Shown here piece after piece: positions 5,263 through 39,009 of a stretch of DNA of 44,678 nucleotides. The notes below the pieces were generated by a model that worked only from the letters and a program-made list of their open reading frames with translations, did not search any database and was not told the origin of the DNA. The stretch is from a virus: positions 1-44,678 of IMG/VR virus record IMGVR_UViG_3300034093_003569. The stretch is one strand, 5' to 3'. The position numbers and the translations under genes were made by a program. Every line of letters begins with the position of its first letter. The first letter of the stretch is position 1.

Positions 5263-5715
5263 CTATAAGGCAAGGTTAGTTTGCTTTTTAATTGCAGTTA
5301 ACCACTCTGATAACAGAGCAATTTTAAACTGATGCCCAAAAGATTTAATCTCAATATAGTTATCAACTATTATTTCATCTGAAAATGCTACAAAGTCTTT
5401 TGAGCGATTCCACCTAAATATCAATAATGGTTTTTTACGCATAACCCCTGCCTCTCTTACCGTCTGCGCCCAAAAACTATACATATCTGTAGTTTTTGAA
5501 GTAAGTAGATTATTCCACTCTATAGATGCGTAGTGTTTACACTCTATGCAATAAGGAAACCAAGCAGTATCATGGGGCATCCATATATCACCTTTTAGAT
5601 AGTCGATAGCTCCACTTAACGGAACTCTTCTAAACTCTTTTCCAAATTCTTTACTAAGAAGCAGCGCTATTTTTGCCTCATAAGCGCTGCCTTTAATTTT
5701 ACCTGCGTTAGCCAT
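5263..5715 (-). CDS. PD-(D/E)XK nuclease, Holliday-junction-resolvase-like
   Basis: 150 residues. The pattern fits Hjc-type nucleases: an early Glu (E13 in GSAYEAKIALLL), RRVPLSGAIDYLKGDIW with D43, then the E-x-K pair in CIECK (E58, K60). Such enzymes cut branched DNA, and in phages they often resolve recombination intermediates before packaging. Its start lies 8 bases inside the phoH gene. The catalytic pattern is clear; the junction-resolvase role is inferred from the fold and from the neighbouring recombination genes. Confidence 0.7.
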   Translation of the reverse strand: MANAGKIKGSAYEAKIALLLSKEFGKEFRRVPLSGAIDYLKGDIWMPHDTAWFPYCIECKHYASIEWNNLLTSKTTDMYSFWAQTVREAGVMRKKPLLIFRWNRSKDFVAFSDEIIVDNYIEIKSFGHQFKIALLSEWLTAIKKQTNLAL

Positions 5716-6448
5716 TAAGTCCCAACTTATACTTATTTATAATATACTCTTTGACTAATGCACTTCTTACAATGTCTTCAACATCAAATTCAACAAAGGC
5801 AAATCTATTCATAGCTTTTAAAATTTTCATAAAATCTATGATACCATTTTTCTCTGATGCTTTTGTAAAGTCGCTTTGAGTATGATCCCCACAAAATAGT
5901 ATTTTACTATTTTTACCTATTCTTGTGATTATACTATCTAACTCATGGAAATTCAAGTTCTCGCATTCATCCACTATAACTATAGTATCATTAAAAGTGG
6001 TGCCCCTAATAAAAGAGGTGCTTATAAACTCAATACTTCCTTGTGCTTTAAGACTCTCATAAGCGTCTTTAACAGCAAAAAGCTCCCCACAAATTGAATT
6101 GTAAGGAGCTTCATATGCTGATATCTTTTCTTCTGCGTTGCCTTTTAGAAAGCCCATATCCCTTGTAGGAACTACCGATCTAACTATAGCTATTTTTTTA
6201 TATTTATTACTTGGATCTAATACTTCTTCTAAAGCTAAGTAAATACTTAAAAATGTTTTACCTGTTCCAGCTATACCATGAAGTAATAAGTTTTTATCTT
6301 CTCTATATAACTTGAAAGTATCATTTTGATGACTAGTTATAGGTTCAAAAGTTTGTAAGTCATCTATTCTAACTTTTCTTAATGCTTTTTCTTCTGTATT
6401 ATTTCTAGTATAGATTGTATTTATCTTTTTGCTAATTGATCGCGCCAT
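5708..6448 (-). CDS. phoH: PhoH-like P-loop ATPase
   Basis: 246 residues. Walker A is GIAGTGKT (58-65) and Walker B is IVIVDE (156-161), followed by GDHTQSDF (187-194). This order is typical of PhoH/RhaB-type ATPases, which are very common in marine phages and may act as RNA helicases or in phosphate stress; the exact role is unsettled. The N-terminal 40 residues are a variable extension. The ATG at 6448 has AAGG upstream. It lies between the resolvase-like gene and glutaredoxin. Confidence 0.9.
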   Translation of the reverse strand: MARSISKKINTIYTRNNTEEKALRKVRIDDLQTFEPITSHQNDTFKLYREDKNLLLHGIAGTGKTFLSIYLALEEVLDPSNKYKKIAIVRSVVPTRDMGFLKGNAEEKISAYEAPYNSICGELFAVKDAYESLKAQGSIEFISTSFIRGTTFNDTIVIVDECENLNFHELDSIITRIGKNSKILFCGDHTQSDFTKASEKNGIIDFMKILKAMNRFAFVEFDVEDIVRSALVKEYIINKYKLGLNG

Positions 6449-6697: not shown

Positions 6698-7095
6698 TAA
6701 AGATCTCCTTCTTTACGGTTTTCGCTGTAATGAGCATCAAATGATCCTCCAGGATATCTAGATTCTAGTTTACGCACATTCTCCGCAATAACATCATTAG
6801 GGTCTAGTCCTAGCGCACGACAGCTATTAACCCAATACCACATGATATCTCCTAACTCACGTTTCATATGAAAGATATTCTCATCATTCATAGGCTTACC
6901 TTGAAAGATTGCTTTTTTGACAATCTCCATAAATTCTCCAGCTTCTGCACTAAGACCTACTGCTCCAGTTAATAATAGCGATACGTTTACTTTACTTTCT
7001 AGTTCTCTAATACGTAAGATCATCATCTCAGTATCATTTGACTCTATGCTAGTAACAGCTTGTACGAAGTCTTTATACTTATTTAAATCAATCAT
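6697..7095 (-). CDS. mazG: MazG-like nucleotide pyrophosphohydrolase
   Basis: 132 residues with the all-alpha NTP pyrophosphohydrolase metal motifs EAGEFMEIVKK (E51, E54, E57) and RELGDIMWYW (E80, D83). It would cleave NTPs or dNTPs to the monophosphate and pyrophosphate. Phage MazG proteins have been proposed to clean the nucleotide pool or to lower ppGpp; the substrate is not readable here. It sits between nrdB (4-base overlap) and glutaredoxin (1-base overlap), which favours a nucleotide-pool role. Confidence 0.85.
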   Translation of the reverse strand: MIDLNKYKDFVQAVTSIESNDTEMMILRIRELESKVNVSLLLTGAVGLSAEAGEFMEIVKKAIFQGKPMNDENIFHMKRELGDIMWYWVNSCRALGLDPNDVIAENVRKLESRYPGGSFDAHYSENRKEGDL

Positions 7096-8219
7096 AGGCT
7101 AAATCCTTTAAAACTATCTTTATCAACATCTTGTTTAGTTCCCCCAATTATGTAACTAGAGATTTCTGTTTCTTGAGGAGCTACTTGAACTTCTCCACCA
7201 GATATCCACTTCTGTGTCCAAGGTAATGGATTAGCTCTAGGTACTGAGAAAACAGATTTCATACCAATAGACATCATACGCTTATTAGCAATCCATTCAA
7301 TATAGTCCTCAAGTAACTTAGCATTAAGCCCGATCATAGAGCCATCTTTAAATAAATACCTAGCCCATTCTTTTTCTTGTGCTACAGAATCTGTGAACAT
7401 TTTTATTACTTCTTGTTCGCACTCTTTAGCTATTGTAATAAAATCAGTGTCATCTTGTGGAAGTAGCTTAAGTATCTGTTGAGTACTTGCTAAGTGTAAG
7501 TTTTCATCACGCGCTATAAACTTAATGATTTTAGCATTACCTTCCATCTTTTTAAGTTCAGCGAAAGCCCATGAACAAGCAAAACTAACATAGAATCTCA
7601 CACCTTCTAGAATATTAACACTCATCAAGCATAGATATAACTTTTTCTTTAGTTCATAAAGATCAACTACAATCTTCTTATCATTAACCGTATGTGTACC
7701 TTCCCCAAGTAGCTGATACCACTGAGTAGCTTCTATAACATCATCATAGTATTTAGATATATCAACAGCACAATCCATAATTTCTTGAATATCCATCATC
7801 TCGTCAAAGATTTTACTAGGATTAGCATATACATTACGAATAATATGCGTGTAACTGCGGCTATGAATAGTTTCACTAAAAGCCCATGTTTCAATCCAAG
7901 TTTCTAGTTCTGGAATAGTAACTAGAGGCAATAACGCTAGGTTAGGTGATCTGCCTTGTACCGAGTCTAGTAAGATTTGACGTTTAAGATTAGAAGTAAA
8001 TATATGCTGTTCGTGCTCTGTAAGACCTTTAAAATCAGCTGCGTCTCTTAATACATCAATCTCTTCTGGTCTCCAAAAAAATCCTAACTGCTTATCAGTT
8101 AGTTTATCAAAAGATTTATACTTTAGAACATCATAACGTTGCATCCCAATTCCTTCATCGGAATCAAGAAACATCTTAGCTTTAGTATGGTCTGACTTGC
8201 TTGTATTTAATACTGACAT
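7092..8219 (-). CDS. nrdB: Class Ia ribonucleotide reductase, small subunit
   Basis: 375 residues. The di-iron ligands and the radical Tyr match E. coli NrdB shifted by a single position: D85, E116, H119, E205, E239, H242 and Y123. It therefore carries the oxygen-generated Fe-tyrosyl radical and pairs with the NrdA encoded at 9021-11315. The two genes are separated by an unrelated methyltransferase gene and a scrap of NrdA coding sequence (8234-8257), so they were probably adjacent once. The ATG at 8219 has only a weak AGAAAG-type site. Confidence 0.96.
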   Translation of the reverse strand: MSVLNTSKSDHTKAKMFLDSDEGIGMQRYDVLKYKSFDKLTDKQLGFFWRPEEIDVLRDAADFKGLTEHEQHIFTSNLKRQILLDSVQGRSPNLALLPLVTIPELETWIETWAFSETIHSRSYTHIIRNVYANPSKIFDEMMDIQEIMDCAVDISKYYDDVIEATQWYQLLGEGTHTVNDKKIVVDLYELKKKLYLCLMSVNILEGVRFYVSFACSWAFAELKKMEGNAKIIKFIARDENLHLASTQQILKLLPQDDTDFITIAKECEQEVIKMFTDSVAQEKEWARYLFKDGSMIGLNAKLLEDYIEWIANKRMMSIGMKSVFSVPRANPLPWTQKWISGGEVQVAPQETEISSYIIGGTKQDVDKDSFKGFSL

Positions 8220-8233
8220 GGTAATTTAACTTT

Positions 8234-8257
8234 CTATAAAATGCAGCTATCGCATGC
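8234..8257 (-). pseudogene. Remnant of the NrdA C-terminal tail (CDSC redox motif)
   Basis: Between the methyltransferase stop and nrdB, the leftward strand reads Ala-Cys-Asp-Ser-Cys-Ile-Leu-stop. The true NrdA end (9021-9047) reads Ala-Cys-Asp-Ser-Cys-Val-Ile-stop. The DNA TGCGATAGCTG is identical in both places and the similarity extends a little upstream. An in-frame TAA just before it (8258-8260) means it is not translated as an extension. Its stop lies 14 nt before the nrdB ATG; the real NrdA stop lies 12 nt before the methyltransferase ATG. This is best read as the original 3' end of nrdA, left behind when the methyltransferase gene was inserted. Confidence 0.65.
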
Positions 8258-8261
8258 TTAT

Positions 8262-9008
8262 TCATGTTTTTTTAAATATTATTTTGATGTTACCATCTAT
8301 GTAATCATCTACTTCATCAACATTATCTTCATAATATAGTAATTCTAAATTATCACATATAGAATAAACTTTATCAAAGACGTATTTTCTTAAATTTAAT
8401 TTAGAATCCAATTTTTTAGAGATAATAAATTCCGGATCAACTTCATTAGTCACATCTATTAGACGTTGCATATTAAAAGTTATATATCCTAATCCATTAG
8501 GCTGTATAATGTGAGATAATTGCTCTATTATATATTGAATTTGATTTAGATGAATAAAATGTAAAGAGTTAATAGCTATTGCAGCAGAAAATTCTTCCCT
8601 GTGAGCTTCCATGAATTTTTCATCAAAAAGTCCTTGAATATCAGCTCTTGGATCATCGTCTAGTCCAATAATAGGATATATACTTTTGAATAGATTCATA
8701 CCGCATCCAATATCAATTATTGGGTACTGCTTTGTATTTTTCACAATATAATCTAGCATATAGAAGCTAGATAACGTGAGTCTGCCTTGGTGTATATGCC
8801 TTTCGCGAGGAGTATATACCTTAATGGGTTTTTTAAAATTTCTACCAGCCCTATCAAAATCCCAAGTAATAATTTGAAAGGGCGTTGCGACTCTTATAGC
8901 AATAGAAATCTGTTTAAGCTTATCAAACACTTCTGATTTTAAGAAATCTTCTTTCCATTGCTTCCTGTCAGGTAACATGATCTTGTTAATAAGGATTGAT
9001 GCAGCCAT
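8262..9008 (-). CDS. Class I SAM methyltransferase inserted between nrdA and nrdB
   Basis: 248 residues. Motif I is IIDIGCGMNLF (97-107), strand 2 ends in GLDDDP (115-120), and a motif IV-like region is AAIAINSLHFIHL. The last 30 residues are very acidic, then KKT. The GCGxNxFK core is shared with the methyltransferase at 38272-39009 (GCGYNQFK), suggesting one family. No target-recognition domain or DNA-methyltransferase DPPY motif is seen, so a small-molecule, surface or protein substrate is as likely as DNA. It follows nrdA by 12 bases and is followed by the NrdA-tail remnant. Confidence 0.75.
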   Translation of the reverse strand: MAASILINKIMLPDRKQWKEDFLKSEVFDKLKQISIAIRVATPFQIITWDFDRAGRNFKKPIKVYTPRERHIHQGRLTLSSFYMLDYIVKNTKQYPIIDIGCGMNLFKSIYPIIGLDDDPRADIQGLFDEKFMEAHREEFSAAIAINSLHFIHLNQIQYIIEQLSHIIQPNGLGYITFNMQRLIDVTNEVDPEFIISKKLDSKLNLRKYVFDKVYSICDNLELLYYEDNVDEVDDYIDGNIKIIFKKT

Positions 9009-9020
9009 TTATTAATACTC

Positions 9021-11315
9021 CTAAATTACACAGCTATCGCAAGCTGCTTCATCTTCTAATAGATTATCATCTAATTGAGCATTATCCTCTAACTTATTTA
9101 GATCAACTTCACCTTGTCCATCAAAAGTATTAAAATAATATAGCTGTTTTCCTCCGTACTTATAAAACATAAGTATGTGCTGCAGCATGGTGCTCAGTGG
9201 TATTTTTTCATCTTGGTAGTGTTGTGGATTATAGCTAGTATTAACGCTAATACCTTGGTCAATATACTTTTGCAATACTGCCATAATTTTTAAGTAGCCT
9301 TCTGGGCTTTTCTGATCCCATAAAAGTTCATATTTAGTTTTTAATTTATGAATACCAGGAATAACCTGTTTTAATACCCCATCTTTAGATTGCTTTACAC
9401 TTACAAAGGCTCTCGGAGGTTCAATGCCGTTTGTTGCATTAGCAATTTGAGCGCTTGTCTCTGCTGGCATAAGAGCCATGAGAGTTGAATTACGAATACC
9501 AGTAGACTTTAACTGCTCTCGTAGTCCTACCCAATCCATACGCTCTATATGAGGTACTAATTCATCTAGTTCTTTTTTATATGTTTGGTTAGGGGTAATA
9601 CCGTGACCGTACTTAGTTTCCATAACGCCTGGAATAGCTCCTTGCTCAATAGCAAGATCCGCACTAGCTTTAATTAAATAATATGACCAAGCTTCTGCAT
9701 ACTCATCAATCAATGCTAAATTAGGATTCTCATAACCAGTATTATTTTTAGCTAACCAGTAGGCTAGATTAATAATACCTACGCCTAGAGGTCTACGTTT
9801 CATAGTACTGTTATACGCTGCTAATACGGGGTAGTTTTGATAGCTAAGTAAAGCATCTAATCCACGTACTGCTAATGCACATACGTGCTCAAAGTCTGAA
9901 GGAGTCTTAATATTACCCCAGTTAATAGCACTAAGAGTGCAAAGTGCGATCTCACCATCTGGATCATTTAAGTCATTAAGAGGTTTAGTAGGTAAGTTAA
10001 TCTCACAACATAGGTTGCTTTGACGGATCGGTGCAACACTTTCAATAAAGGCACCATGCGTATTAGCATGATCCACATTCATTAAGTATATACGTCCAGT
10101 ATTTTTACGTTCTTCCATAAAGTTAGTAAATAGATCAATAGCTTTAATAGTCTTTTTACGTATTGTTGGATTATTTTCTGCTCTTTCATACAGCATTTTA
10201 AAGCGATCTTGGTCAGCAAAAAATGCATCATACAGTCCTGGTACATCATGCGGGCTGAATAAGGTTATATTACCGCCTGATAGTAGTCGCTCATACATTA
10301 GTTTATTAAATTGTACTCCATAATCCATGCCCCTTACACGATTATCTTCAGTACCCTTGTTATTTTTGAGCACAAGTAGGTCTTCTACTTCATAATGCCA
10401 GATAGGATAATAAAGTGTTGCAGCACCGTTTCGTACTCCTCCTTGACTACAGGAACGTGTAGCAGCTTGAAACATTTTATAAAATGGAATAACACCTGTA
10501 TGATAAGCATCACCACTTCTAATAATAGAGCCTAGTGCCCTAATTTTACCAGCATTTACTCCAATACCAGCTTTTTGACTTACATACTTTACAATAGCTG
10601 AAGTAGTAGCACTAATGCTATCAAGACTATCATCAGACTCAATAAGAACGCAGCTACTGAATTGGCGTTGTGGAGTTCTGACCCCTGCCATTACAGGAGT
10701 AGGAAGACTAATATCATATAGGCTAATAGCATCATAGTACTCTTTTACCCATTTCATTCTAGTTTCTTTTGGATAATCTTGAAATAGAGTAAGTGCTATC
10801 ATCATATAGGCCATTTGAGGAGTTTCATAAATCTCCTTAGTTACGCGATTTTGAACTAAGTATTTACCTCTCCACTGCTCCATAGCTGCAAATGCTAGGG
10901 TATTATCTCTAATATGCTTAATATTACTATCTGCTTTAGATAACTCTTTTTTAGAGTATTTATCTAATATAGCAGCGTCGTAAAAACCTTTTTCTATATT
11001 TTTATTTATTAAGTCTAACAATGAACAAGGTTCGTAGTGCCCATATACTTGCTTTCTTAGGTGATAGTTAATCAAGCGCCCTGCTACCCACTGATAATTG
11101 GGGCTAGCCTCTGAAATTAGATCAGCTGCGCTCTTGATAAGAGTTTCTTGAATATCGCTTGATTTAATATTATCATAAAACTGAATTTTACTATTCAGCT
11201 CAACTTCACTTACACTAACTCCAGCAATATCTTCGCAAGCAAAACTTACTACTTTATGTAGCTTCTCAATGTCTAAGGGCTCTGAGGTACCATCACGTTT
11301 AATCACACTTATCAT
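9021..11315 (-). CDS. nrdA: Class Ia ribonucleotide reductase, large (catalytic) subunit
   Basis: 764 residues, close to E. coli NrdA (761). An N-terminal ATP-cone-like domain (VIKRDGTSEPLDIEKLHKVV, about 4-23) suggests allosteric control by ATP/dATP. Substrate-site motifs are FSSCVLIE, SNLCCEINLPT (equivalent of the E. coli N437/C439/E441 region) and GEIALCTLSAINWG. The C-terminus CDSCVI holds the shuttle cysteine pair that glutaredoxin re-reduces. It makes dNDPs for phage replication together with NrdB. It follows the sbcC-like gene by 10 bases. Confidence 0.96.
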   Translation of the reverse strand: MISVIKRDGTSEPLDIEKLHKVVSFACEDIAGVSVSEVELNSKIQFYDNIKSSDIQETLIKSAADLISEASPNYQWVAGRLINYHLRKQVYGHYEPCSLLDLINKNIEKGFYDAAILDKYSKKELSKADSNIKHIRDNTLAFAAMEQWRGKYLVQNRVTKEIYETPQMAYMMIALTLFQDYPKETRMKWVKEYYDAISLYDISLPTPVMAGVRTPQRQFSSCVLIESDDSLDSISATTSAIVKYVSQKAGIGVNAGKIRALGSIIRSGDAYHTGVIPFYKMFQAATRSCSQGGVRNGAATLYYPIWHYEVEDLLVLKNNKGTEDNRVRGMDYGVQFNKLMYERLLSGGNITLFSPHDVPGLYDAFFADQDRFKMLYERAENNPTIRKKTIKAIDLFTNFMEERKNTGRIYLMNVDHANTHGAFIESVAPIRQSNLCCEINLPTKPLNDLNDPDGEIALCTLSAINWGNIKTPSDFEHVCALAVRGLDALLSYQNYPVLAAYNSTMKRRPLGVGIINLAYWLAKNNTGYENPNLALIDEYAEAWSYYLIKASADLAIEQGAIPGVMETKYGHGITPNQTYKKELDELVPHIERMDWVGLREQLKSTGIRNSTLMALMPAETSAQIANATNGIEPPRAFVSVKQSKDGVLKQVIPGIHKLKTKYELLWDQKSPEGYLKIMAVLQKYIDQGISVNTSYNPQHYQDEKIPLSTMLQHILMFYKYGGKQLYYFNTFDGQGEVDLNKLEDNAQLDDNLLEDEAACDSCVI

Positions 11316-28542: not shown

Positions 28543-28978
28543 TATTTATCACTATTCTTTTATAATACTCTTCTGACCATTTATCATAATAATTAGTCTT
28601 AAATAATGTGTATCTTGCAGCTAGTAAGCTAGCTCTATTTTGTATTAAAAATATAACATACTTACCATTACCCGTACTTAGATCTCCTATAAAACCTGGG
28701 TCTAGTGGATGATCTAACATCACTATATGATCAGAGTTACTATTAGCATATATTTCTAGTTCTTTAGCGCTATCTACATCTATATACTCTTCATATATAA
28801 ACACTATTAAATCTATATTATCTATACTTTGTTTAATAGCTGCGTATAGCTCAGACTTATTACCTTTTTCTATAGTATATCTAGCTTTACTAGCAAAGGG
28901 ACAGATTTTATAGTTATCTACTGGTGCAGATATTTTTTTAATCCAGTTGTGTATGTGGCTTTCATAAATATCTTTCAC
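28532..28978 (-). CDS. CPFA-motif protein cotranslated with the amidinotransferase
   Basis: 148 residues. The start is GTG at 28978, 17 bases inside the amidinotransferase 3' end. The same GTG with the same overlap is preserved in the truncated copy at 30120-30245, which supports this start. The N-terminus KDIYESHIHNWIKKISAP leads to YKICPFASKA (23-32), a Cys-Pro-Phe-Ala motif also seen in DUF1415-like proteins, and the middle has DHPLDPGFIGDL. The family assignment is uncertain. Its tight coupling suggests it works with the amidinotransferase product. Confidence 0.6.
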   Translation of the reverse strand: MKDIYESHIHNWIKKISAPVDNYKICPFASKARYTIEKGNKSELYAAIKQSIDNIDLIVFIYEEYIDVDSAKELEIYANSNSDHIVMLDHPLDPGFIGDLSTGNGKYVIFLIQNRASLLAARYTLFKTNYYDKWSEEYYKRIVINSEK

Positions 28979-30041
28979 ATCCGCCTTCTCTTTCTATGTC
29001 TAAAGTTATGCAATGCAGTCCTCCGTCCCAGAACCACCTATGCCTATAATTACATATTATGGGCTCTATACTATGTTTTTTACAGAAATCCCATACGCCT
29101 TTATTATAATTAGTAAATAATACATGAGATTCATCTAGTACTAGGCAATTTAAATCAAAAATAGACTCATTTGAATACCCTAACCACTGATTAAACCATG
29201 TATTTATAAGTACATCAAACTCCTCATTATTAAATTTAGAATGCTCAAAATCATAACTAGTAGCCCACTCTTGAGTTTTTCCATTAGCTAGAGACATATT
29301 TTTTTTACCGTCAGGACGTGTTCTTGTTTTTTTAATCTTAAACCAGCCTTCTTTAAGAACATCAATTGCGTCATACCCTTCTATAACATGTATATCCCAA
29401 TTTGCAAATAAAGAATCTTTAACCATATGCCTCTTATCATAAGTTAATATGACCCCTGGCTTTAAAATTGCAAATACAGCATCTCCGTGAGACATAGGAT
29501 TTTTAAATTTAGCATTAAAAGCTTTGCCACCATGAATAGTATAGCCTAAAGGTTCATAGGTTTTTTTAATATAATCAACCATAGTTTGTGTATTAGAATC
29601 TTCTTGCACATCTACTATAATATCTTTACCTAATCTAATTATGCTAGCAGGATTAAATCCTAGTAATGCTCTTGGTCTTTTAAAGTACTCTGCATGTTCT
29701 TTTAACCCTTTTGCAAACCACATAGTTGTGTCTCTAGCTGAATTTCCAAGTATCAAATCATTATCAAACACTACAGACCAGTCTCTAGGGGTCATTAAAG
29801 CTGGATAATCATAAACGCTACTTTCTTTACCGTAGTCAGGCCTAAATACTTTAGCCCCATAAGTTTCTACTACGTTTATTAGCTTTTGGTAATCTTCTTC
29901 AGTTTCATCTAATAAATAAGTTAGTAGTCTTTTATTATTATCTGAAATATAAGGTAATGTTGCTATAGCTCTTGAATTCCAAGACCTACCTACTACTAAT
30001 TGTTTTAATGGTTGAAATTCTGTATATGCTTGTGGTCTCAT
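28962..30041 (-). CDS. Amidinotransferase, glycine-amidinotransferase family (copy 2)
   Basis: 359 residues. Family landmarks: LMTPRDWSVVF (82-92), SHGDAVF with H185 and D187, and the catalytic Cys C344 in GGLHCITLD. This Cys-His-Asp arrangement transfers the amidino group from arginine to an amine and releases ornithine. The acceptor cannot be read from sequence; known members act on glycine, inosamine phosphate or toxin precursors. AGGAAT precedes the ATG. It is about 80% identical to the copy at 30229-31299, with differences clustered around residues 100-112 and 221-255. Confidence 0.88.
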   Translation of the reverse strand: MRPQAYTEFQPLKQLVVGRSWNSRAIATLPYISDNNKRLLTYLLDETEEDYQKLINVVETYGAKVFRPDYGKESSVYDYPALMTPRDWSVVFDNDLILGNSARDTTMWFAKGLKEHAEYFKRPRALLGFNPASIIRLGKDIIVDVQEDSNTQTMVDYIKKTYEPLGYTIHGGKAFNAKFKNPMSHGDAVFAILKPGVILTYDKRHMVKDSLFANWDIHVIEGYDAIDVLKEGWFKIKKTRTRPDGKKNMSLANGKTQEWATSYDFEHSKFNNEEFDVLINTWFNQWLGYSNESIFDLNCLVLDESHVLFTNYNKGVWDFCKKHSIEPIICNYRHRWFWDGGLHCITLDIEREGGCERYL

Positions 30042-30119: not shown

Positions 30120-30245
30120 TTATGCATCAGCAGCTTTTGGGTTATAGTCAGTACTATTAACAACTGAGTAACCTTTATAGTTACCTACTGGGGCAGACAC
30201 CTTTTTAATCCAACTAGCTATATGACTATCATAAATATCGTTCAC
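30120..30245 (-). pseudogene. Chimeric duplication-junction ORF
   Basis: 41 codons from GTG (30245-30243) to TAA (30122-30120). The first part, NDIYDSHIASWIKKVSAP and on to Asn-Tyr-Lys, matches the start of the gene at 28532-28978 (KDIYESHIHNWIKKISAP). The last nine codons, DYNPKAADA, match the end of the HTH gene at 31384-32067 (DYTPKAADA). About eight codons between them match neither. It is exactly what a tandem duplication with breakpoints in those two genes would create. The frame is intact, so a short peptide could still be made. Confidence 0.8.
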
Positions 30246-31299
30246 AACTACCTTCTCTTTCTATATCCAAAGTGATACAATGTAACCCTCCATCCCAAAA
30301 AAATCTATGTCTAAAGTTACATATTATAGGCTCTATATTATGTTTTTTACAAAAATCCCATACACCTTTATTATAATTAGTAAATAATACGTGAGATTCA
30401 TCTAGTACTAGACAGTTTAAGTCAAAAACAGACTCATTTGAATATCCTAACCACTGATTAAACCAAGTATTTATAAATATATCAAACTCTTCATTATTAA
30501 ATTTAGGATTTTCAAAGTCAAAACTAGTAGCCCACTCATGTATTCTTCCATCATTTAGATTTATAATTTTTGTACCGTCACGTCGTGTATGGTTAAGTTT
30601 AAAGGTACTCCAACCTCTTTCATGAATTTTATCTATTTCTATAACATGTATATCCCAATTAGTAAATAAGGAATCTTTAACCATATGATTTGAATCTGTA
30701 GTTAGTATTACCCCAGGTTTTAAAATTGCAAATACAGCATCTCCATGAGACATAGGATTTTTAAATTTAGCATTAAAAGCCTTACCGCCATGAATAGTAT
30801 AGCCTAAAGGTTCATAGATTTTTTTAATATAGTCAACTATAGCTTGTGAGTTAGAATTTTTTTGTACATCTACTATAATATCTTTGCCTAACCTAATTAT
30901 ACTAGCAGGATTAAATCCTATTAATTCTTTTGGTCTTTTAAAATACTCTGCATGTTCTTTTAATCCTTCTGCAAACCATCTACTAGTAGCTTTACCTATA
31001 CTACCAATTATCAGATCATTATCAAATACTATAGACCAGTCTCTAGGAGTCATTAAAGATGGGTAATCATAAATGCTGTCCGCCTTACCGTAGTCAGGTC
31101 TAAATACTTTAGCTCCATAAGTTTCTACTACGTTTATTAACTTTTGATAATCTTCTTCAGTCTCATCTAATAGATGAGTTAGTAGCCTCTTATTATTGTT
31201 TGAAATATAAGGTAGGTTTGCTACAGATTTAGAATTCCAAGATCTGCCTACTACTACTTGCTTTAATGGTTGGAATTCTGTATATGCTTGAGGTTTCAT
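30229..31299 (-). CDS. Amidinotransferase, glycine-amidinotransferase family (copy 1)
   Basis: 356 residues. The same catalytic landmarks as copy 2 are intact: LMTPRDWSIVF, SHGDAVF and GGLHCITLD, so both copies are predicted active. Three residues fewer than copy 2, in the divergent stretch near residues 221-255. The ribosome binding site is weaker (AAGTAG versus AGGAAT in copy 2), which may lower its expression. Its 3' end overlaps the GTG of the chimeric ORF by 17 bases, just as copy 2 overlaps the gene at 28532-28978. The retained active site after considerable divergence suggests selection on both copies. Confidence 0.88.
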   Translation of the reverse strand: MKPQAYTEFQPLKQVVVGRSWNSKSVANLPYISNNNKRLLTHLLDETEEDYQKLINVVETYGAKVFRPDYGKADSIYDYPSLMTPRDWSIVFDNDLIIGSIGKATSRWFAEGLKEHAEYFKRPKELIGFNPASIIRLGKDIIVDVQKNSNSQAIVDYIKKIYEPLGYTIHGGKAFNAKFKNPMSHGDAVFAILKPGVILTTDSNHMVKDSLFTNWDIHVIEIDKIHERGWSTFKLNHTRRDGTKIINLNDGRIHEWATSFDFENPKFNNEEFDIFINTWFNQWLGYSNESVFDLNCLVLDESHVLFTNYNKGVWDFCKKHNIEPIICNFRHRFFWDGGLHCITLDIEREGSCERYL

Positions 31300-38256: not shown

Positions 38257-38285
38257 ATAGTATAATTTTTTTTACTTTTTTTCAA
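38257..38285 (-). promoter_or_regulatory. Candidate promoter of the symporter/sulfotransferase cassette
   Basis: Leftward, TTGAAA (38285-38280), inside the last codons of the methyltransferase gene, is followed after 17 very A-rich nt by TACTAT (38262-38257); TATACT two bases earlier is an alternative -10. The region is extremely A+T-rich, so chance matches are possible. Confidence 0.35.
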
Positions 38286-39009
38286 GTAAAAAGAACAAAC
38301 GATTGCCATTATCTTTTTTGAAAGTTACTAACTCAACTCCGCAGTCATTAGCTACACGCTGGGCTGCTTCAAAATCCCAAGGGAATATATGAATCCATGG
38401 GCCGTTCTTGTGCGTCTCTCCTGGATTAGCGCGAACATAAATTTGCCCACCTGGTGCAGTTATCTCAACAACCTTGCGAAAGCTAGCAATGATATCTTCA
38501 TACTCGCCAAAATTGATGCTACCAAGTACTATTACTGCGTCATAAGTATCAGGTTCTACATCGTATTCTAAGATGTCTACCATGTAGTCAGCACTACTGT
38601 TAAACTTGTCTATTCCAACTAAATTAGGTATGTGTGGTTTGAATTGATTATATCCACATCCAACATCTAGAACTTTTTTGGGATTGAGTTTATTAATCTC
38701 TTCTACAATACCCCATCCGGTATACTGATAGATATCAGTTTTGGGTTGCCATACTCCACTACCCCAAAAACGTGTAGCATATTTTGTGTCGATATCTTCT
38801 ACTAGATCGGCTACTGACCCTTCTAGATTAGCAATAACATCAAACGTATCTTTTATATCTTGTTCAAACTTTTCAATACCTGTAAGAGTCCAAGGTAAAG
38901 ATTTGATATTAGTATCTTTATTTAGATTACTGCGAATATCTATCCAACGTTCTAAACTAAAGGCATCATCTAAGTTTTTTAGGATATATGTTAAAATTTT
39001 CGTATTCAT
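38272..39009 (-). CDS. Class I SAM methyltransferase
   Basis: 245 residues. Motif I is VLDVGCGYNQF (113-123), strand 2 ends in VGIDKFN (131-137), and AVIVLGSINFGEYEDI forms the motif IV region, followed by GGQIYVRANPGE. The N-terminal 100 residues are a helical cap. The core GCGxNxFK is shared with the methyltransferase inserted beside nrdA. No DNA-target motif is seen, so sugar, lipid or small-molecule methylation is likely. Its start shares one base with the stop of the gene upstream. Confidence 0.78.
   Translation of the reverse strand: MNTKILTYILKNLDDAFSLERWIDIRSNLNKDTNIKSLPWTLTGIEKFEQDIKDTFDVIANLEGSVADLVEDIDTKYATRFWGSGVWQPKTDIYQYTGWGIVEEINKLNPKKVLDVGCGYNQFKPHIPNLVGIDKFNSSADYMVDILEYDVEPDTYDAVIVLGSINFGEYEDIIASFRKVVEITAPGGQIYVRANPGETHKNGPWIHIFPWDFEAAQRVANDCGVELVTFKKDNGNRLFFLLEKK

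Follow-up and report, generated by a model that had tools for sequence, protein, structure and literature searches.

The locus considered here raises the question of how a gene encoding a methyltransferase (MTase) came to lie between nrdA and nrdB, and why the DNA behind it still carries what looks like a second end of nrdA. The window, i.e. the whole stretch of DNA analysed, is the 44,678-nucleotide IMG/VR viral record IMGVR_UViG_3300034093_003569 of an uncultured phage, in which nrdA, the MTase gene and nrdB all lie on the minus strand. nrdA (9021..11315) encodes the large subunit of a class Ia ribonucleotide reductase (RNR; 764 aa; Pfam Ribonuc_red_lgC, 5e-121, with lgN and ATP-cone). Its 3' end, GAT GAA GCA GCT TGC GAT AGC TGT GTA ATT TAG, reads as a functional C-terminal tail (...DEAACDSCVI-stop). 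The stop codon is overlapped by an AGGAG Shine-Dalgarno-like site (9018..9022) located 5' of the MTase gene, and a 12-nt gap separates it from the MTase ATG (9008). The MTase gene (8262..9008) encodes a predicted class I SAM-dependent enzyme of 248 aa, whose C-terminus is intact (DGNIKIIFKKT-stop). Beyond its stop, positions 8257 to 8234 read GCA TGC GAT AGC TGC ATT TTA TAG, i.e. A C D S C I L stop. The stop of this remnant lies 14 nt from the ATG (8219) of nrdB (7092..8219), which encodes the small subunit (375 aa; Pfam Ribonuc_red_sm, 4e-49), and these 14 nt (8220..8233) form the nrdB leader AAAGTTAAATTACC. A sequence-only reading of this DNA had pointed to the Ala-Cys-Asp-Ser-Cys codons left after the MTase stop, to the two distances to the next ATG and to a sequence shared with the true end of nrdA; all were found, at the positions it gave. 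The shared sequence is the 11-mer TGCGATAGCTG, which occurs only twice in the whole window: as a left copy within the nrdA tail codons (9031..9041) and as a right copy in the remnant (8244..8254).

Several data indicate that the remnant is a genuine nrdA tail. Both copies satisfy the redox-active C-x-x-C motif of the NrdA C-terminal tail, the remnant being detached from the nrdA frame. A search for the tail motif C[DE][SATG]Cx[IL]-stop in six frames of 296 fetched loci (2.19 Mb) gave 174 matches in 172 loci. Where positions were printed, these were at nrdA ends; for the other loci, one match per locus was counted. Two tail motifs were found only in the window and in L081, which is a copy of the window, and the motif was absent from all fetched loci of the MTase family that lack nrdA. 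Moreover, dinucleotide shuffling of the 42 nt preceding nrdB produced an 11-nt identity in 2 of 2000 trials, and shuffling of the entire 801-nt gap did so in 3 of 1000. The motif survey and the shuffles therefore rule out a chance resemblance. The remnant had no exact match in IMG/VR. Since an in-frame TAA lies directly upstream, the remnant is not read within any ORF. Its translation by frameshift from the MTase gene was also rejected, the frame being closed by this TAA and the other frames missing the remnant. The GAATAA found directly upstream of the remnant resembles the GAAGAA of L004, L018 and L055, and homologs of the MTase end in FEK-stop or EKHGI-stop; this hexamer may be the native 3' end of the MTase gene rather than an extension of the remnant.

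The closest relative devoid of the MTase, found by an NrdA search of IMG/VR, is IMGVR_UViG_3300009785_000113 (hereafter L084), whose NrdA and NrdB are 90% and 91% identical to those of the window. Collinearity of the two sequences extends from the junction over 4.1 kb on the upstream side and 3.0 kb on the downstream side, with a DNA identity of about 80.5%. In L084, nrdA ends with TGCGATAGCTGTGTTTTATAG, followed by AAAGTTAAATAATA, the counterpart of AAAGTTAAATTACC, and the ATG of nrdB. The junction is thus GCTTGCGATAGCTGTG/TTTTATAG AAAGTTAAATAATA ATG in L084 and GCTTGCGATAGCTGTG/TAATTTAGGAG...MTase...AAGCATGCGATAGCTGCA/TTTTATAG AAAGTTAAATTACC ATG in the window. Compared with this empty site, the window carries an insert of 787 nt (8242..9028), whose exact ends are ambiguous within the 11-bp repeat and which contains the V-I-stop end of nrdA, the Shine-Dalgarno sequence, the MTase gene and the right copy of the repeat. 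The remnant and the nrdB leader match L084 at 29 of 31 nt (next best locus, 23 of 31), and the end of the L084 nrdA does not match the present 3' end of nrdA in the window. Therefore, the remnant is the original end of nrdA and the present V-I-stop is new. This closest match in a relative free of MTase is what the sequence-only reading had predicted, and no MTase-free relative was found to carry two tails. Within the sequence available for L084 and other close relatives, no copy of the MTase gene was found at another position.

The nrdA linker that precedes the tail (QLDDxxxEDEAAC) is common to the window and L084, and identity to L084 is uniform along nrdA, with no sign of an imported tract upstream of the tail. 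Hence, nrdA itself is native and its imported end possibly comprises only V-I-stop; the part replaced may be limited to the last two codons, the stop and the Shine-Dalgarno sequence. This uniform identity also prevents the left join from being placed exactly. The insert opens with ...GTA ATT TAG GAG, which is an ordinary nrdA 3' end in this phage group (for instance in L003, L045 and L146). On the other side, the nrdB leader is unchanged over 18 nt (TTTTATAGAAAGTTAAAT).

The inserted gene encodes a protein with a DIGCGxN motif (motif I) that is near-invariant across 14 homologs. An AlphaFold2 model built with these homologs (pLDDT 77, pTM 0.79; single-sequence prediction was poor, with a pLDDT of 45) matched SAM methyltransferases of the PDB in Foldseek with TM-scores of about 0.4, and the homolog from L206 clears the Pfam cut-off of Methyltransf_23. 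The modelled Rossmann-like fold and motif I thus qualify the product as a predicted class I SAM-dependent methyltransferase. No nuclease domain was detected in it with Pfam or PHROGs, which bears out the earlier statement that the inserted gene is not itself a nuclease, nor in the scanned proteins of four other junction inserts and the MTases of L206 and L230. The family was collected by alignment-based scans of IMG/VR, which gave 221 related stretches, of which 80 were kept. Such alignment queries were needed: a single-sequence query against viral sequences gave nothing. MTase searches of genome contigs and of a named phage collection gave no matches.

At 13 other IMG/VR loci (L206, L230, L237, L239, L245, L273, L277, L287, L290 and L292-L295), the nrdA/nrdB junction is occupied by a member of this family. 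In a MTase tree with long branches, the MTase of the window groups with those of L230 and L239, both located at the nrdA/nrdB junction, with an SH-aLRT support of 94, below the 95 mark. The nearest MTase is that of L230 (32% identity over the full length), and L206 and L230, which are of the donor type considered below, have TGCGATAGCTG in their own nrdA tail. Elsewhere, some family members adjoin genes that, from their sequences, we take to be folE/queD/queE-like or FEN1-like. L207, L210, L214 and L216 thus carry the MTase gene beside genes reading as FolE, QueD and, in L216, QueE, which suggests a possible link to 7-deazaguanine chemistry. The window also encodes a second class I methyltransferase (38272-39009, minus strand), which belongs to a different clade and whose orthologs occur in phage loci of marine origin (L083 and L188, for example); with about 21% identity and this other clade, a recent internal duplication was rejected.

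We consider it probable that the MTase gene was transferred from a phage with the order nrdA-MTase-nrdB by recombination at the nrdA tail, displacing the old tail. A MTase gene that other phages harbour between nrdA and nrdB would have moved into the junction of the window, the left join falling within the conserved nrdA tail codons (TGCGATAGCTG). The incoming DNA would have contributed the new V-I-stop end of nrdA and the Shine-Dalgarno sequence of the MTase gene. The right join would fall just past the MTase stop, the sequence returning there to the resident tail within the same 11 bp; the original ACDSCIL/VL-stop would thereby have been displaced downstream together with the nrdB leader, both intact. 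The expected donor would have the nrdA tail GTAATTTAGGAG directly before the MTase gene and no remnant. The recombination was probably of the phage single-strand-annealing type. Phage Rad52-like recombinases exchange short, diverged stretches, with a homology far longer there than 11 bp (PMC3945230).

Transfer from such a donor is favoured because nrdA is native, only 7 nt separate the MTase stop from the right copy of the repeat and the 11-bp repeat is exceptional. Indeed, only 0.7% of random windows attain such a length, and the flanking repeats of the 20 other insert-bearing loci compared reach only 6-9 nt, i.e. chance level. Against it, no direct donor was found among the loci, the closest MTase having only 32% identity, and the remnant, or any other second nrdA tail, is absent from all 13 other loci with the order nrdA-MTase-nrdB. 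The earlier proposal that the MTase gene arrived with a replacement NrdA tail is probable and is preferred, on account of the normal nrdA-like ending, to a duplication of the target site; what was imported of the tail is perhaps two codons. Both genes are whole after the insertion, nrdA having a normal end and nrdB an unchanged leader. The MTase gene has its own Shine-Dalgarno sequence and is probably carried on the same transcript as nrdA and nrdB.

Alternatively, a nuclease or a transposase acting in trans could have cut the nrdA tail in a staggered fashion, the break then being filled in around the MTase gene and leaving a target-site duplication and a V-I-stop that would be coincidental. 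The exact 11-bp direct repeat that flanks the insert and its single copy in the empty site fit this scheme. However, a random insert would give [I/L]-stop at this place in only about 0.7% of cases (9/64 x 3/64, our estimate); under this scheme, a reading frame that runs on into an ordinary nrdA end would therefore arise by coincidence in under 1% of cases. Moreover, the new end resembles ordinary nrdA tails, and most of the differences between the two tails are synonymous or conservative codon changes. The single gene of the insert is the MTase gene: no transposase, integrase or other recombinase is encoded in it, and inspection of its ends revealed no terminal inverted repeats. We therefore regard such a duplication as unlikely, although it keeps some plausibility.

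A second alternative is that the MTase gene and the displaced tail predate the split from L084, which would have lost both by deletion between the 11-bp repeats. The L084 junction, GCTGTG/TTTTATAG, is the exact product expected from recombination between the two repeats of the window. However, the MTase is also missing from the relatives just outside the pair, and a loss in L084 would merely shift the same insertion event one node back. In a tree of NrdA and NrdB (114 rows), the window and L084 are sisters (support 100, starred), and the 27-row clade around them contains no other MTase; the presence of the MTase on this tree requires at least 4 changes. On the MTase tree, the nrd address likewise requires four changes, the starred branches alone forcing only two. 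Repeated arrival of the gene would be the simplest history suggested by these trees, with a gain in the lineage of the window since neither the sister L084 nor the rest of the clade has the MTase, and we give an older insertion followed by loss in L084 a slim chance.

Homing proper would imply that a free-standing endonuclease, comparable to mobE of T4, cut the nrdA tail and that the MTase gene was a passenger of the break repair. The nrdA/nrdB junction is a known address of endonucleases (PMC2988022), T5orf172-family homing endonucleases are often near RNR genes, which were found in 33% of their surveyed neighbourhoods (PMC10448857), and the cut site would fall in a conserved coding sequence. 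However, no nuclease domain was found in the MTase family or in the scanned junction inserts. Replication-type exonuclease aside, the only endonuclease-like product among 26 Pfam-scanned proteins of the window is encoded off the junction, and we consider homing very unlikely. This product is a putative PDDEXK_15 phage endonuclease (5263-5715, minus strand; Pfam 8e-30), whose gene lies near phoH and a 5'-3' exonuclease gene. Lastly, an assembly chimera joining the MTase gene into the junction is conceivable for a single-copy metagenomic contig but extremely improbable, since assemblers typically need overlaps much longer than 11 bp for a join, the GC3 of the MTase gene (0.225) is similar to that of its flanks (0.24) and the same family occupies this junction in other loci.

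Other cargo genes were observed at this junction. Compared with its empty relative L067, to which its flanks are 86-90% identical, L160 carries a second cargo insert of about 720 nt between nrdA and nrdB (5288-6005). At the right edge of this insert, 12 nt of the nrdB leader (AGAGAGAAAACT) are repeated in tandem, and the encoded protein is a distant relative of that of the L031 insert (24% identity, 4e-14). Glycine-zipper-like proteins of about 130 aa are patchily encoded between nrdA and nrdB (L003, L004, L010, L018, L055, L085 and L089), and in L004, L018 and L055 their frame extends back into the nrdA tail codons. Direct-repeat signatures at other junction inserts were discarded as being at chance level. 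Away from the junction, the window carries two adjacent paralogous genes (28962-30041 and 30229-31299, minus strand; 81% identical) that we take, on our own reading, to be of the amidinotransferase type; the one scanned had no Pfam match. A homolog of these paralogs lies between the MTase gene and nrdB in L206.

The entry of passenger genes into packed, essential phage operons is usually deduced from before-and-after maps. Here, both junctions can be read to within a few bases because the old gene end lies beside the insert and a relative has the empty site. Neither NrdA nor the nrdB leader is damaged by the insertion, which could in principle be reversed precisely. This case thus records how phages can add genes to an essential operon without breaking it. 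Furthermore, with a MTase family recurring there, the nrdA/nrdB junction appears as a general cargo address and not just as a site for homing endonucleases. A bolder idea, which we hold to be doubtful, is that the tail codons of nrdA serve repeatedly as a landing address, where nuclease-free cassettes carrying a spare nrdA ending insert and which they can leave precisely via recombination at the short repeats. If true, cargo would be exchanged among distant phages at a single, constant place in the genome, both genes remaining intact.

Integrative elements that enter the 3' end of genes (att sites in tRNA or protein genes) restore the gene that they enter. The insert resembles them in that the 3' end is re-created, the old end lies beyond the insert and short direct repeats flank it: TGCGATAGCTG is present at both ends and the V-I-stop of nrdA is re-supplied. 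However, it is only 0.8 kb long, carries one gene and lacks an integrase or excisionase; neither a recombinase of its own nor att-site arms were found. It does not correspond to a DDE/IS-type transposon either, having no transposase and no terminal inverted repeats visible at its ends, nor to a mobE/seg-type element, since the inserted gene has no HNH, GIY-YIG or other nuclease domain.

The junction had been linked to mobE by the sequence-only reading, and the literature confirms that mobE occupies it in T-even phages (PMC2988022, PMC3653736). As for mobE/Hef in T4-type phages, a foreign gene that varies among relatives is tightly packed between nrdA and nrdB (PMC2988022, PMC3653736). However, mobE encodes an HNH endonuclease, whereas the gene of the window encodes a methyltransferase without nuclease domain, and in the window the original nrdA tail is displaced and a replacement ending supplied. 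Such a displaced tail was not found in the text of the mobE review (PMC2988022), and our limited survey of open-licence papers found no report of one at nrdA/nrdB. In Aeromonas phage Aeh1, the insertion of mobE splits nrdA, whose function is retained (PMC2988022, PMC3653736). The window likewise shows an insertion into the nrdA coding sequence with function retained; however, the NrdA of Aeh1 consists of two polypeptides, whereas nrdA of the window is still a single, unbroken gene, its last codons having been supplied anew. A survey of phage RNRs described unknown genes between nrdA and nrdB and inferred that the two were separated by gene insertion or acquired independently (PMC3653736). The window shares such an insertion with these cases but differs from them in that one event is documented by an empty site and a remnant. 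Hence, it is a well-documented variant of the known insertion of cargo at nrdA/nrdB.
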